Assembly (NCBI GenBank): GCA_913064725.1
Contig: CAJYAI010000004.1
Location: 1-64,000, forward strand
Reading direction: 5' to 3'
Source: an uncultured Alteromonadaceae bacterium
Lineage (GTDB): Bacteria; Pseudomonadota; Gammaproteobacteria; Pseudomonadales; Halieaceae
DNA: 64,000 nt
In this document: one piece after another, positions 46,068 through 53,710 of the stretch
Layout: each line of letters begins with the position of its first letter
How positions within the stretch are numbered: position 1 is the first letter of the stretch
The notes under the pieces: generated by a model
Databases searched by the model: none
Told to the model about the DNA's origin: nothing
What the model saw: the letters and a program-made list of their open reading frames with translations, nothing else
Program-made: the position numbers and the translations under genes

Positions 46068-46973
46068 CTAGCGGGCTGCTAGGCACTCCTCTATAAACGC
46101 CCCGAGCAATGTAAACTCATGCTTCCGGGGCGTTTTTTTGCGCCACATCAATCCGATTTTTCGACTGATATCGGGCTCATCAAACGGCCGCAACACCAAC
46201 TCAGTACCCTGTGTAATCCCGGCGTCAATCGCCATCTTGGGTAGCAGTGTCGTACCAATCCCGTTTGCCACCATTTGCACAATGGTTGTCAGACTTGTCG
46301 CTTGATAGGGAACTTTCACGTCTTTTTCGCCAAGCTTACATGCCTCAAGCGCATGATCCCTCAGGCAATGCCCCTCCTCCAATAGCAGCATATCGGTACC
46401 CTGAAGATCGCGGGTTCGCAGCTTTACGCTTTTAGCCAGTGCTGATGCTGGCAGTGTCGCCAAATAAAACGGGTCATCAAACAGCGTAAGGGTGTCAACG
46501 TGATCGCTGGGGAACGGTAGGGCCAATAACAACACATCCAGCTCACCCGCCTGCAGTGCATCAACCAAACTTTGCGATAAGTCTTCACGCATAAAGAGCT
46601 TACATGCTGGATGGGCTGACCGCAGAGCATTGAGCATCGCTGGCAGAATAAAGGGTGCGATGGTTGGAATGACACCAAGCCTGATGGTTCCGTGAAAGGG
46701 TTCTCCAGAGGCCTCGCACAGCGCAACCACGTCATCGACATCCGTAAGGACATCACGTGCGCGTGCAACCACCTCGTCACCCAATGCGGTGAGTAACACA
46801 GAGCGATTATTCCGCTCAACGAGGCTGGCAGACAATACATCTTCGAGCTCTACTATCGACGCGCTCAGTGTACTTTGGCTGACATGACAGGCTTTTGCAG
46901 CCTGGCCAAAGTGCTGGTGCTCGGCTACTGCGCACAAATATTTTAATTGCTTCAAGGTTGGCTGTCGCGACAC
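46068..46973 (-). CDS. oxyR: Hydrogen peroxide-sensing regulator OxyR
   Basis: This LysR-family activator switches on antioxidant genes when a disulfide forms. It has an N-terminal HTH (HFGQAAKACHVSQSTLSAS, about 18-36) and a C-terminal sensing domain with LLEEGHCLRDHALEACKLG, in which the two cysteines lie nine residues apart as C199 and C208 do in E. coli OxyR. I prefer the GTG at 46971-46973 (product MSRQPTLKQLKYL) with GGAG upstream, giving 301 residues; a TTG at 47057 would add an odd leader. It is divergent from rubrerythrin. Confidence 0.9.
   Translation of the reverse strand: MSRQPTLKQLKYLCAVAEHQHFGQAAKACHVSQSTLSASIVELEDVLSASLVERNNRSVLLTALGDEVVARARDVLTDVDDVVALCEASGEPFHGTIRLGVIPTIAPFILPAMLNALRSAHPACKLFMREDLSQSLVDALQAGELDVLLLALPFPSDHVDTLTLFDDPFYLATLPASALAKSVKLRTRDLQGTDMLLLEEGHCLRDHALEACKLGEKDVKVPYQATSLTTIVQMVANGIGTTLLPKMAIDAGITQGTELVLRPFDEPDISRKIGLMWRKKTPRKHEFTLLGAFIEECLAAR
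46095..46139 (+). terminator. Strong terminator of the TonB receptor gene, inside oxyR
   Basis: A 10-bp stem AAACGCCCCG (46095-46104) / CGGGGCGTTT (46126-46135) with a run of seven T (46133-46139) ends plus-strand transcription about 45 nt after the receptor stop. A smaller inner pairing extends the loop. The element lies wholly inside the last codons of oxyR on the other strand. A second perfect 9-bp hairpin (GTGCCTAGC / GCTAGGCAC, 46064-46086) spans the oxyR stop codon. Confidence 0.8.
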
Positions 46974-47142
46974 GGAGGCTCCATCGATCTTGTCGTCAAT
47001 TTGTCCTATATACGATCGGAAAAATCGATTGGTTTTGCCTGCTTTTTTTGGAACCAATTGCCGCCGAAATGAGTATAGTATTCACGTTGTCGCTGCAGAG
47101 CGGCGTCATGACGTCTAATGTTCAACTAGGGAGTAAAAAGCA
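46974..47142. promoter_or_regulatory. Divergent regulatory region between oxyR and rubrerythrin
   Basis: This 169-nt region should carry both promoters. An inverted repeat ATTGGTT (47028-47034) / AACCAAT (47052-47058) and a second dyad CGAT-N7-ATCG (47013-47027) lie in its middle. CGAT-N7-ATCG has the four-base/seven-base layout of OxyR half sites but not their ATAG/CTAT bases. TATAGT at 47074-47079 is a plausible -10 for rubrerythrin; no good -35 sits 17 bp upstream, which suits an activated promoter. OxyR binding here is inference. Confidence 0.4.
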
Positions 47143-47562
47143 ATGGAACTGAAAGGTAGCCAAACCGAACAGAACCTCAAAGACGCGTTTGCGGGTGAAT
47201 CACAAGCGAATCGTCGCTACCTCTACTTCGCCTCAAAGGCAGATGTAGAAGGTTACAACGATGTTGCAGCTGTTTTCCGCTCAACAGCTGAGGGTGAAAC
47301 AGGCCACGCGCACGGTCACTTGGAGTACCTCGAAGAGGTGGGTGATCCCGCAACGGGCATGCCAATGGGCGACACCGTGAAAAACCTCGAAGCATCGATT
47401 GCAGGCGAGACTCACGAATATACCGATATGTACCCCGGTATGGCCAAAACAGCTCGCGACGAGAGCTTTGACGAGATCGCGGACTGGTTCGAAACACTTG
47501 CGAAAGCCGAGCGTAGTCACGCAAACCGTTTCCAGAAGGCTCTCGATAACCTCGACGCCTAA
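47143..47562 (+). CDS. Rubrerythrin without rubredoxin domain
   Basis: This 139-residue diiron ferritin-like protein probably reduces hydrogen peroxide. It shows the four-helix metal ligands: [12 protein letters not shown] (first Glu), GETGHAH (ExxH), AGETHEY and [10 protein letters not shown] (ExxH). It stops where the C-terminal rubredoxin domain would start in classical rubrerythrin, so electrons must come from a partner. The start has GGGAG upstream. The neighbours are an Fe-S oxidoreductase and DUF3501, a recurring cluster, and oxyR is divergent. Confidence 0.92.
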
Positions 47563-47583
47563 GCGCGAGTCATGTCGTATTTT

Positions 47584-47606
47584 GGGGGGACGTCAGTCCC
47601 CCCTTT
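47584..47606 (+). terminator. Hairpin between rubrerythrin and the Fe-S protein gene
   Basis: GGGGGGAC (47584-47591) and GTCCCCCC (47596-47603) form an 8-bp, G/C-rich stem with a 4-nt loop, followed by only TTT. It looks like a partial terminator or mRNA-stabilising hairpin that would make rubrerythrin mRNA more abundant than the distal genes. Confidence 0.5.
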
Positions 47607-47637
47607 CGGTTAAACCATCGCAATAGAGGCAAAATAC

Positions 47638-48966
47638 ATGCGTGAAGGTAGCGTGGATGCACCCACTCGCCACCCCATTGAGTGGAAAACGGAGAATTTT
47701 TGGGATCGTGATGCGCTCAATAACGAGTTAGAGCGTGTCTACGACGTTTGTCATGGATGCCGCCGGTGCGTCAGCCTGTGCGACTCTTTCCCGACACTGT
47801 TTGACCTGATCGATGAATCTGAAACCTTCGAAGTCGACGGCGTCGCGGTTGAGGACTACAACAAAGTGGTCGATCAGTGCTACATGTGCGACCTGTGTTA
47901 TCTGACTAAGTGCCCCTATGTGCCGCCGCATGAGTTCAATATCGATTTTCCGCATTTGATGCTCCGAGCTAAGGCTCAGAACTTCAAGACCAAAGGCGCG
48001 AAGCTGCGAGACAAAGTACTGACTTCTACCGACGCGCTAATGGGCGGCGTTGCGGCGATTCCACTGGTAGACGTCACCGCAAATGCGCTGAACAAAAACG
48101 GCACCTTCCGTAAGGCGCTCGAGAGCAGTTTTGACATTGCTGCCGATGCACCCTTGCCCGAGATCCACAGGAATACCCTCATCAAACGTGCCAAAAAGCT
48201 CATCACCGATATCAAGGCGACACCCGTTGGTGCTACAACCGGTAAACTTGCGTTGTATGCAACCTGTTATGGCAATTACAGCAGCCCTGACATTGGTGAA
48301 GATTTTATTAAAGTCTTTCAACACAATGACATCAGCATCGATGTGATTCCGAAGGAAAAGTGTTGTGGTATGCCGAAGCTGGAACTTGGCGATCTGGATT
48401 CTGTCGCGGCGCTCAAAGAAGCTAACATACCGTTGCTAGCCAGCCTCGTAGACCAAGGCTATGATTTAACGGCACCGATTCCCTCTTGTGTATTGATGTA
48501 CAAGCAAGAGCTACCGCTGATGTTCCCCGACGATCCCGATGTTCAGAAAGTGAAAGCCGCATTCTATGACCCCTTTGAGTATTTGTGGTTGCGCCACAAG
48601 GGCGAAGCGTTCAAGACCGAGTTCGCCGAGAGCCTCGGGAACATTGCCTACCAAGTCGCCTGCCACCAACGAGTTCAGAATATTGGCCTTAAAACGCGCG
48701 ACATACTGTCACTGATTGAAGAGACAACCGTCGTCGCCCACGAGCGTTGTTCCGGACACGATGGTACGTATGCCATCAAAAAGGAAACACGCGATAAGTC
48801 CGTTAAAATTGCGCGGCCAACGGTGCGGAAGGTAAACGACCAGAAGCCCGACCATTTTATTTCAGACTGCCCTATGGCTGGAGAGCACATTGCACACCTA
48901 GCCGATGGCATCGATAGCGCCCAGCACCCTATGACGCTGCTACGCACTGCGTACGGCCTAAAGTAA
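47638..48966 (+). CDS. Heterodisulfide reductase-like Fe-S oxidoreductase (GlpC/HdrD type)
   Basis: This 442-residue protein has two [4Fe-4S] ferredoxin-type motifs near the N-terminus, CHGCRRCVSLCDS (about 38) and CYMCDLCYLTKCPY (about 81), then two cysteine-rich CCG-type domains (EKCCGMPKLE near 240; ACHQRVQN and ERCSGHDG near 345-380) as in GlpC and HdrD. It has no flavin motif. Lying between rubrerythrin and DUF3501, it is a likely electron carrier for them; that role is inferred. AGAGG precedes the ATG. Confidence 0.88.
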   Translation: MREGSVDAPTRHPIEWKTENFWDRDALNNELERVYDVCHGCRRCVSLCDSFPTLFDLIDESETFEVDGVAVEDYNKVVDQCYMCDLCYLTKCPYVPPHEFNIDFPHLMLRAKAQNFKTKGAKLRDKVLTSTDALMGGVAAIPLVDVTANALNKNGTFRKALESSFDIAADAPLPEIHRNTLIKRAKKLITDIKATPVGATTGKLALYATCYGNYSSPDIGEDFIKVFQHNDISIDVIPKEKCCGMPKLELGDLDSVAALKEANIPLLASLVDQGYDLTAPIPSCVLMYKQELPLMFPDDPDVQKVKAAFYDPFEYLWLRHKGEAFKTEFAESLGNIAYQVACHQRVQNIGLKTRDILSLIEETTVVAHERCSGHDGTYAIKKETRDKSVKIARPTVRKVNDQKPDHFISDCPMAGEHIAHLADGIDSAQHPMTLLRTAYGLK

Positions 48967-48979
48967 CGAGGAGATTTTC

Positions 48980-49576
48980 ATGCCACACCTGACCCGAAGT
49001 GACCTATGGTCACTTGAGCAATACTCAGAACAGCGCGAGAGCTTTCGAGCTGAGGTTCTAGCGCACAAAAACAATCGCCGGTTGTCTCTGGGAGAGAACG
49101 CGCGGATCTACTTTGAAGATACGGTAACCATTCGATATCAAATTCAGGAAATGCTGCGCATCGAAAAGATTTTTGAAGTTGCAGGTATCGAGGAAGAATT
49201 AGCTGCATACAATCCGTTAATTCCCGATGGTACAAACTGGAAGGCGACCTTCATGATTGAATTTGGCGACCCTGCAGAGCGAGCACAGCGTTTGCGCGAG
49301 ATGCGCGGTATCGAGAATTGCATCAACATCGAGATTGAAGGCCAGGGTGTCGTTCAGGTGATCGCGGATGAAGATCTCGAGCGAGAAACGGAAGAGAAGA
49401 CGTCGGCCGTGCATTTTATGCGCTTCGAACTCAGTAACGAGCAAATCGCAGCGTTGAAAGACGGCGCGAAACTCTTTGCCAGTGTCGAGCATGCCGCTTA
49501 CCCGATTGCGAGATTCGAAGTCGCACAAACCACGCGCGACGCCTTGGTTCGAGACCTAGTACTCGTTTCACACTAA
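48980..49576 (+). CDS. DUF3501 family protein
   Basis: This 198-residue protein belongs to a family of unknown function that recurs beside rubrerythrin and the HdrD-like protein. It is acidic and soluble, with no signal peptide. Conserved-looking phrases are DTVTIRYQIQEMLRIEKIF (about 53-71) and YNPLIPDGTNWKATFMIEF. It has few cysteines and histidines, so it is unlikely to bind Fe-S itself. It is 13 nt downstream of the Fe-S gene with GAGGAG, so it is co-transcribed. I infer an accessory role in the peroxide module. Confidence 0.88.
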   Translation: MPHLTRSDLWSLEQYSEQRESFRAEVLAHKNNRRLSLGENARIYFEDTVTIRYQIQEMLRIEKIFEVAGIEEELAAYNPLIPDGTNWKATFMIEFGDPAERAQRLREMRGIENCINIEIEGQGVVQVIADEDLERETEEKTSAVHFMRFELSNEQIAALKDGAKLFASVEHAAYPIARFEVAQTTRDALVRDLVLVSH

Positions 49577-53170: not shown

Positions 53171-53710
53171 ATGAAACACGCCTTAGCACTAATCACGGGC
53201 ATCAGCCTGTCAAGCGCAGTGACTGCATGCCCTGATTTTTTAAACACGGAAATGCGCAAGCTGAGTTCCAAGGAATCCATCAATTTTTGCGAAAGCTATG
53301 CGGGTAAGCCCATGCTAATCGTCAATACCGCCAGTAACTGCGGATATACACCTCAGTTCACTGGCTTGGAAGCGCTGCATCAAGAGTACAAGGACAGAGG
53401 TTTGGTTGTCGTCGGCTTTTCATCAGACGACTTCTTTCAAGAAGAAAATGATGAGGCCGATGCCGCGACCGTGTGCTTTGAGAAATATGATGTGTCGTTT
53501 CCTATCATGGCGACAAGCTCTGTCAGAGGCGGCGATGCAAATGCCGTATACAAGGGCCTCGGCGACGCTAAAGGATACCCGCGATGGAACTTCAACAAGT
53601 ACGTCGTATCCGGTGAAGGCGAGGTCATAGCGAAATTCGGTTCTAGTGTTGGGCCTGAAAGCAACGAACTTCGCAGTCTCATTGACGAGGTAATTGTCGG
53701 CGGAGAATAG
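53171..53710 (+). CDS. Glutathione peroxidase family protein with signal peptide
   Basis: This thiol peroxidase of the Gpx/BtuE family is 179 residues. It has an N-terminal hydrophobic export signal (MKHALALITGISLSSAVTA), so it should act in the periplasm. NTASNCGYTPQFTGLEALH carries the peroxidatic Cys (about 57), GFSSDDFFQEEN replaces the usual GFPCNQFG.QEP, and PRWNFNKYVV is the conserved WNFxK. Because the second block has no cysteine, the resolving Cys is likely elsewhere (VCFEKYDV). AGGAG is upstream. Confidence 0.9.
   Translation: MKHALALITGISLSSAVTACPDFLNTEMRKLSSKESINFCESYAGKPMLIVNTASNCGYTPQFTGLEALHQEYKDRGLVVVGFSSDDFFQEENDEADAATVCFEKYDVSFPIMATSSVRGGDANAVYKGLGDAKGYPRWNFNKYVVSGEGEVIAKFGSSVGPESNELRSLIDEVIVGGE

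Follow-up and report, generated by a model that had tools for sequence, protein, structure and literature searches.

How a rubrerythrin that lacks its rubredoxin domain is re-reduced, and how its production is tied to peroxide stress, are questions raised by a four-gene locus on a 64,000-nucleotide stretch of contig CAJYAI010000004.1 (here the window, meaning the whole of the stretch analysed). The stretch comes from a 2.63 Mb, 98% complete genome of the genus Luminiphilus. At this locus oxyR, which encodes a LysR-type regulator, is divergent from three contiguous plus-strand genes encoding a rubrerythrin (RBR, gene rbr), a GlpC-like Fe-S protein (RFO) and a protein of the DUF3501 family. A preliminary description made from the sequence alone had proposed this gene set and order, and read it as a peroxide-protection module; all four genes were found in place with their domains confirmed by Pfam, only the oxyR start being off by one (46973, not 46974). 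The trio is almost certainly the known aerobic-type rubrerythrin module, and we consider it probable that the locus as a whole is such a module under OxyR control: it is an ordinary Luminiphilus example of the known module, informative in its regulation.

The trio cannot be claimed as novel, having been in print since 2016. Cardenas, Quatrini and Holmes (2016; PMC5114695) named an ‘aerobic-type’ rubrerythrin accompanied by RFO and DUF3501, proposed that RFO compensates for rubredoxin, and reported 185 genomes with all three families; the trio has also been predicted in the mitochondria of some protists (PMC7050145). The window locus shares with their set the same three families, a rubredoxin-less rubrerythrin, a CCG-type Fe-S protein and the role given to RFO: its RBR has no rubredoxin domain and belongs to the DUF3501-linked lineage, and is adjoined on the same strand by a COG0247-type CCG protein and by DUF3501. 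It differs in that OxyR does not occur in the main text of that paper, and that operators, a hairpin and a peroxiredoxin-linked DUF3501 are not met in its available parts (PMC5114695). In a phylum sample of 398 genomes, DUF3501 was found in 25, and an RBR at least 80% identical to that of the window in exactly the same 25. The earlier statement that the trio recurs was upheld by this co-occurrence survey, since RBR, RFO and DUF3501 are contiguous and in the same order in all 24 DUF3501-bearing genomes other than that of the window. An apparent loss of DUF3501 in three rbr-bearing genomes of the same genus was rejected as a contig-end artefact. One MAG (metagenome-assembled genome) contig (L203 3168–5952) has RFO and DUF3501, the position of rbr being taken by a gene that by eye resembles one for an aminotransferase, and rbr may lie elsewhere; at L228, RFO lacks an adjoining rbr but has a run of N upstream, and no conclusion was drawn from it.

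The prediction of a rubrerythrin without rubredoxin was borne out. The 139-residue RBR gave only PF02915 and ferritin-like matches and no rubredoxin domain in Pfam, and its residues 2–137 align with the solved rubrerythrins 4di0 and 9onm (E 1e-74), as well as with sulerythrin. It falls short of the NCBIfam model for classical rubrerythrin (139.6 of 200 bits, profile positions 3–146 of 194 only). Its identity with the RBRs of the other 24 genomes that carry DUF3501 is 80–88%, the next group reaching at most 56%. A peroxidase activity of RBR is suggested by analogy with ferriperoxin of Hydrogenobacter thermophilus, likewise a rubredoxin-less rubrerythrin, for which FNR/NADPH-dependent peroxidase activity has been shown experimentally and which is needed for aerobic life: the mutant fails to grow at 10% O2, and sensitivity to H2O2 has been shown (PMC3317640). 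The likeness has limits, in that the donor tested for ferriperoxin was FNR with NADPH (PMC3317640), and that the H. thermophilus RFO gene is reported to lie apart from the ferriperoxin gene (Cardenas et al. 2016; PMC5114695). The structural match, ferriperoxin, the divergent oxyR with its candidate operator, and the linkage to catalase and ahpCF-like genes in relatives together lend good support to the claim of peroxide protection, and, judging by sequence, the module very likely serves peroxide defence. In one relative, oxyR, a catalase gene, rbr and the DUF3501 gene are consecutive and RFO is absent (L238 2740–6585), an arrangement that supports the linkage to peroxide. In another the trio and an ahpC-ahpF-like pair (by eye) are arranged divergently around a spacer that holds two ATAG-N7-CTAT sites (L100 674–5570).

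The regulator itself carries the Pfam domains HTH_1 and LysR_substrate and a redox-cysteine motif in which the peroxidatic and resolving Cys are arranged as C-x8-C, a pair that we take to be equivalent to C199/C208 of E. coli. Its best model of all is the NCBIfam OxyR equivalog, at 222 bits with a cut-off of 329; six scanned OxyR-type neighbours of the trio in relatives likewise lie below that cut-off (227–292 bits). Divergent oxyR was found in 41/41 fetched Luminiphilus loci (window included) whose contig covers the upstream side of rbr, five others ending before it (L012, L027, L047, L055, L060). In one MAG the trio-adjacent oxyR is split over several frames, by sequencing error or decay (L031 6775–7616). 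Of the 45 spacers that separate a divergent oxyR from rbr, which comprise 43 distinct sequences and come in 41 cases from a single genus, 42 contain the dyad ATCG-N7-CGAT, as against 0.3 expected from dinucleotide shuffles; in the remaining three the dyad overlaps the assigned oxyR start. It stands 108–126 nt before rbr in 41 of the 42, whilst between 30 and 148 nt separate it from oxyR; at L016 the listed copy stands 228 nt before rbr, and the spacer holds a second copy. Downstream in the spacer alignments a GTAT(A) core is kept, about 52 nt past the dyad centre in the window; a sigma-70 scan did not pick out the TATAGT at this point, so that a −10 hexamer is put forward here only as possible. 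Conservation of the operator suggests that rbr would be activated by OxyR in response to H2O2, and we regard control of rbr by OxyR at the window locus as quite likely. The OxyR link is not novel in itself, as one case is in print: in Sideroxydans lithotrophicus ES-1 the trio is clustered with OxyR and was read as serving oxidative stress, in a single genome and with no operator analysis in the available text (PMC7852563; 2020). Luminiphilus differs from it in that oxyR is divergent, and is so in all 41 fetched loci able to show it.

The adjacency belongs to the genus and not to the trio at large. The survey of oxyR adjacency envisaged by the preliminary description gave 41/41 Luminiphilus loci, 0/24 phylum-sample loci and 8/80 named loci, and oxyR adjacency as a general trait was rejected. 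OxyR-type genes with C-x8-C stand beside the trio in those eight (of which L183 is in broken pieces and L172 belongs to the same-genus genome G050) and in L061, L022 and L030, being divergent, upstream on the same strand or downstream. Where the trio has no divergent oxyR, the 250 nt before rbr were collected from 98 loci, thinned to 96 by similarity, and scanned with 2304 dyads (every 4-mer, spacers of 3–11), whose mean count in the 96 regions was 0.56. The top dyad, TAGA-N5-TCTA, occurs in 38 regions and with its nested forms reads TTAGA-N5-TCTAA; ATAG-N7-CTAT, the classical OxyR half-site, occurs in 17 and ATCG-N7-CGAT in four, and the counts for these three and for the nested form were all 0 in reversed sequences. 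We take TTAGA-N5-TCTAA to fit the Irr box, or ICE. The form TTTAGAA is not printed in PMC3413700. An OxyR-type dyad is present in 21/96 regions, an Irr-box-like dyad in 38/96 and both in 0/96, a mutual exclusion with a Fisher p of 4e-6, uncorrected for kinship. Measured on the 98 upstream regions, the Irr-like dyad lies close to rbr (median 64 nt) and the OxyR-like dyad far from it (median 118 nt), a placement that would fit a repressor and an activator, respectively. In a tree of RFO made by a quick method (104 rows, 29 of 101 inner branches open, stop codons replaced by X), the two kinds of dyad need 9 changes, unlabelled rows left out.

Irr or Irr-like genes adjoin the trio in nine loci. 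Five (L111, L112, L113, L115 and L116) have irr directly before rbr-RFO-DUF3501, at 192–211 bits with an IrrA cut-off of 150; these are probably Alphaproteobacteria, outside the class of the window, as the sampled genomes outside that class are mostly taken to be. The other four (L063, L218, L228 and L239) fall below the cut-off, at 112–137 bits. Among the six loci with the gene directly upstream, only L063 has an Irr-like dyad between irr and rbr. Across 32 genomes an Irr-like gene is present in 5/5 with an Irr-like dyad and in 7/27 others (p 0.004), under a presence threshold of E 2e-18 that was set after the list had been seen; at 1e-10, 17/32 genomes match. OxyR is present in 9/9 genomes with an OxyR-like dyad and in 16/23 others (p 0.07), an Irr-like gene occurs in 5/7 genomes that lack OxyR (p 0.05), and genome G111 combines an OxyR-like dyad with an irr adjacent to the trio. 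Irr sites before rbr may already have been predicted by Rodionov et al. in 2006. MbfA (blr7895) belongs to another rubrerythrin-like family than the aerobic-type RBR of the trio. Binding of Irr before this rubrerythrin-like gene, and its control of mbfA, is a likeness in print (PMC3413700).

A further regulatory feature is a terminator-like hairpin in the spacer between rbr and RFO. GC-rich hairpins at least as strong as that of the window occur in 122 of 133 unique rbr-RFO spacers (about 24 expected from shuffles), that is in 41/42 with divergent oxyR and 81/91 others (shuffles 4.7 and 19.6), and are followed by a T-rich tail in 26 and 22 of them, respectively (shuffles 0.8 and 1.2). A threshold of 16 was set at first, and the window hairpin falls one short of it; the counts given here are those at 15, whilst thresholds of 14 and 16 give 127 and 112 of 133 (shuffles about 36 and 15). 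Seven of the 140 unique spacers are shorter than 40 nt and were unscored, so that the hairpin is not universal. The median gap is 103 nt between rbr and RFO (142 loci) versus 23 nt between RFO and DUF3501 (153 loci). The recurrence of the hairpin suggests that transcription of rbr mostly does not continue into RFO, and that RBR is thus probably made in excess.

RFO had been described as a GlpC/HdrD-like protein with two [4Fe-4S] motifs plus CCG domains. The motifs are indeed present, as CX2CX2CX3C and CX2CX2CX4CP followed by two CCG-type halves, the second of which is degenerate (CSG). The CCG domain PF02754 scores 42 bits, over its cut-off, and 15 Cys (eight for the two [4Fe-4S] clusters, four and three in the CCG halves) are invariant in 48/48 aligned sequences. 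HdrB-type proteins carry two complete copies of the non-cubane cluster motif CX31-39CCGX35-36CXXC; RFO has C210, C242, C243 and C284 in the first half, the last Cys of CXXC being absent, and C342, C371 (CSG) and C411 in the second. It scores 205.3 of 278 and 124.6 of 279.9 bits with the NCBIfam GlpC equivalogs. The closest solved folds to its model are LutA (Z 24.9), Mycobacterium smegmatis EtfD (9ojn; Z 21.9 over 365 residues) and HdrB (Z 20–21); a search by sequence for a solved relative gave a single match, a mite allergen, taken as chance. RFO is thus like the GlpC/HdrD/LutA/EtfD carriers in having two [4Fe-4S] motifs and then CCG halves, and unlike them in its scores below the GlpC cut-offs, its CSG and the missing last Cys of CXXC; it would appear to work like GlpC without being GlpC. 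EtfD and GlpC accept electrons from flavoproteins, and the upstream donor of RFO is therefore likely to be a flavoprotein encoded outside the operon. That RFO compensates for the lost rubredoxin is not a new thought (Cardenas et al. 2016; PMC5114695). Its EtfD/LutA/HdrB-like fold makes the replacement plausible, whilst the service of FNR/NADPH to ferriperoxin and the absence of RFO from L238 weigh against it. We put the chance that RFO is the main physiological donor of RBR at about even.

To our knowledge DUF3501 has no known function. It is mentioned in PMC7465337 and PMC3597751, which in their available parts add nothing on this point. The model of the window protein matches 3FJV, the B. 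pseudomallei DUF3501 structure (Z 25, 47% identical), which was deposited as a novel protein of unknown function. The best match outside its own family is an adaptin ear (Z 6.6, 101 residues, rmsd 3.1), and an Ig-like sandwich is a possible fold, bearing in mind that a Z under 8 in such adaptin-ear or Ig-like matches may reflect a mere common arrangement. The conserved residues include R19, F45, E46, Q54 and E57, and no Cys is among them. RFO and DUF3501 are joined in one frame (653 residues read) in a Nitrosomonas MAG, L202 3130–5091, the sole fusion in 153 loci; RFO-DUF3501 fusions in Nitrosomonas were mentioned by Cardenas et al. (2016; PMC5114695). In genome G069 a lone DUF3501 gene has neighbours that by eye resemble genes for aldehyde dehydrogenase and agmatinase (L064 3995–4603). 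The docking or assembly role proposed in the preliminary description draws slight support from the possible sandwich and the fusion, and a relative of DUF3501 found beside a peroxiredoxin argues against an assembly role that is strictly specific to RBR. We advance a docking or scaffold protein only tentatively; DUF3501 is most likely non-redox, and would bind RFO and/or the peroxidase.

This relative is a divergent form of DUF3501 found in nine Luminiphilus genomes, of which it is the sole DUF3501 found in G020 and G021; the copies of G018, G020 and G033 contain internal stops and look decayed (3/9). Among four intact copies dN/dS is 0.14–0.27, which indicates that the intact copies are under selection. 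In 7/7 fetched loci (L065–L071) the gene is head-to-head with that of a 2-Cys peroxiredoxin; the proteins of L065 and L066 are identical, and L071 is the decayed G033 copy. The L066 peroxiredoxin, the only one scanned, has peroxiredoxin C as its best model (255 bits, cut-off 301). Scored with a 19-letter Fur-box consensus, the shared spacer holds a Fur-box-like site with 15–17 matching letters in six loci; L071 has 14 such letters, and among 181 background spacers the highest number is 13. In G021 (88% complete) rbr, RFO and the ordinary DUF3501 are all absent. Residues R19, F45, E46, Q54, E57, L59, T90 and V144 of the window protein are kept in 13/13 aligned DUF3501 sequences of both forms. 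A function shared between the divergent DUF3501 and the peroxiredoxin is suggested, from one genus and perhaps one origin. The Acidihalobacter rbr cluster also combines the trio with a nearby peroxiredoxin gene, there of the Bcp type and near an ordinary trio (PMC7760498), whereas in Luminiphilus the locus is separate, the DUF3501 divergent and the peroxiredoxin of the 2-Cys type.

Table 1. Features of the oxyR-rbr-RFO-DUF3501 locus (window positions) and example loci of the divergent DUF3501/peroxiredoxin pair.
Feature	Position	Strand or orientation	Basis or remark
oxyR, LysR-type regulator with OxyR redox-cysteine motif GHCLRDHALEAC	46068..46973	-	GTG start at 46973; Pfam, NCBIfam, C-x8-C motif
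Candidate OxyR operator ATCG-N7-CGAT (LysR T-N11-A box)	47015..47029	.	Conserved in oxyR-rbr spacers
Possible -10 hexamer TATAGT of rbr promoter	47074..47079	+	Conserved GTAT(A) core; inference
rbr, aerobic-type rubrerythrin, di-iron peroxidase domain only, 139 aa	47143..47562	+	PF02915; structure alignment
Terminator-like hairpin GGGGGGAC-GTCA-GTCCCCCC + T-rich tail, rbr/RFO spacer	47584..47603	+	z -2.7; recurrent in relatives
RFO, GlpC-like CCG Fe-S protein	47638..48966	+	Pfam, NCBIfam, cysteine alignment, AlphaFold model (pLDDT 88), fold matches
DUF3501, 198 aa	48980..49576	+	PF12007 (Pfam), E 2.4e-66; relative of solved 3FJV; model pLDDT 92
Divergent DUF3501/peroxiredoxin pair	L066 3174-4711; L070 3683-5311	head-to-head	Example loci

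The source genome and the window hold other candidate peroxide enzymes. Four kb from the module, window positions 53171–53710 encode a protein resembling glutathione peroxidase (PF00255), whose N terminus looks signal-like by eye. The first residues of KatG (L252 439–2754; G000 contig C6) resemble a signal peptide by eye, which suggests export; should this be so, the rubrerythrin module may rank among the main scavengers of cytoplasmic peroxide. The PF00578 matches of the source genome include a BCP-type peroxiredoxin and thioredoxin-like proteins, and no AhpC-type peroxiredoxin was seen among the matches read (3/8 loci); catalase PF00199 was not searched for.

Taken together, these features allow a mechanism to be proposed. 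H2O2 would oxidise the Cys pair of OxyR, and oxidised OxyR, bound at the candidate operator, would activate rbr from about −60. The di-iron site of RBR would then convert H2O2 to water, as has been shown for its relative, and RBR, having no rubredoxin domain, would have to be re-reduced by another protein. The Fe-S centres of RFO most likely relay electrons to it from a flavoprotein encoded elsewhere. Most transcripts would stop at the hairpin after rbr, leaving RBR in excess of RFO and DUF3501, and such an excess would suit a mobile electron donor and an accessory protein and not a fixed 1:1:1 complex. DUF3501 itself would most likely attach to RFO, to the peroxidase or to both, without a redox role of its own.

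Several observations weigh against this account. On the side of regulation, the window OxyR falls short of the NCBIfam cut-off, the sigma-70 scan of the window gave no promoter at rbr, no oxyR lies within 5 kb of the trio in any of the 24 phylum-sample loci, and 37/96 upstream regions carry neither dyad. ATCG-N7-CGAT occurs at 155 places in the source genome (21 for the reversed pattern) and ten loci around katG and the genes of PF00578 proteins yielded no copy of it, for which reason its use as a genome-wide finder of the OxyR regulon was abandoned. An alternative is an oxyR that is merely a chance or autoregulated neighbour with no control of the trio: the dyad may serve oxyR alone, and most trio loci have no adjacent oxyR (0/24 with, and 72/80 named loci without). 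The dyad nevertheless keeps its distance to rbr and not to oxyR, and ATAG-N7-CTAT stands before rbr far from any oxyR at many times the control-dyad mean (17/96 versus 0.56), which makes a neighbour without control very unlikely. A role of RBR mainly as a ferroxidase in iron handling, with peroxide use secondary and with OxyR and Irr-type control reflecting iron protection, would account for the Irr-box-like dyads before rbr in 38/96 loci, for the irr directly upstream in five loci, and for the 1.57-fold rise of the rbr transcript of Ca. Pelagibacter ubique, called a putative ferroxidase, under iron limitation (PMC2864753). We consider it unlikely in view of the peroxidase activity and H2O2 sensitivity shown for ferriperoxin (PMC3317640) and of the linkage to oxyR, catalase and the ahpCF-like pair.

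As regards the electron route, ferriperoxin turns over in vitro with FNR and NADPH and without RFO (PMC3317640), L238 carries rbr and DUF3501 with RFO missing, and RFO-less Thermoproteales have been reported (Cardenas et al. 2016; PMC5114695). As regards DUF3501, its fold match beyond its own family is weak, and G069, a 99% complete genome without rbr or RFO, carries a DUF3501 of 35% identity. RFO and DUF3501 might instead form a maturation or repair pair that would act on the di-iron centre of RBR by loading, reducing or re-metallating it, the electrons for turnover coming from an FNR-like flavoprotein. Turnover of ferriperoxin with FNR alone (PMC3317640) and the missing RFO of L238 would then be expected; the hairpin suggests that RFO and DUF3501 are sub-stoichiometric, and across the 24 other genomes identity to the window is 39–60% for RFO versus 80–88% for RBR, points that also favour such a pair. 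A large redox protein whose Cys would serve two clusters at the least, and probably more, and with a carrier-like fold, would however be a costly chaperone, and we hold maturation to be a rather doubtful alternative to RFO as electron carrier.

A broader reading that joins these lines, and which we offer as speculative, takes the trio as a plug-in peroxide module that runs on two exclusive inputs, with DUF3501 as a general partner of peroxidases and with an iron-sparing exchange of one peroxidase for another. The input would be either an OxyR activator far upstream (median 118 nt) or a repressor of the Irr/Fur family close to rbr (median 64 nt), and the inputs would have been exchanged many times, given the 9 changes on the quick RFO tree. 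DUF3501 would not be a part of rubrerythrin as such, the iron-using rubrerythrin having one of its own; under iron starvation, the Fur-controlled, iron-free peroxiredoxin would be produced together with a DUF3501 relative of its own. Already in print were the occurrence of a peroxiredoxin close to the trio (PMC7760498) and Irr control of mbfA (PMC3413700). As far as the literature examined shows, three elements are apparently new: operators of the OxyR or of the Irr type that occur as alternatives, a hairpin that recurs after rbr, and the divergent DUF3501 linked to a peroxiredoxin.

The trio is widespread (25/398 genomes of the phylum), yet DUF3501 is of no known function, and no test of the electron route was met in the literature examined. 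The OxyR/Irr wiring, the hairpin and the peroxiredoxin-linked DUF3501 bear on both, that is on whether DUF3501 serves peroxidases generally and whether RFO is a catalytic donor, and the either/or wiring suggests how genomes without OxyR might control their peroxide defence.

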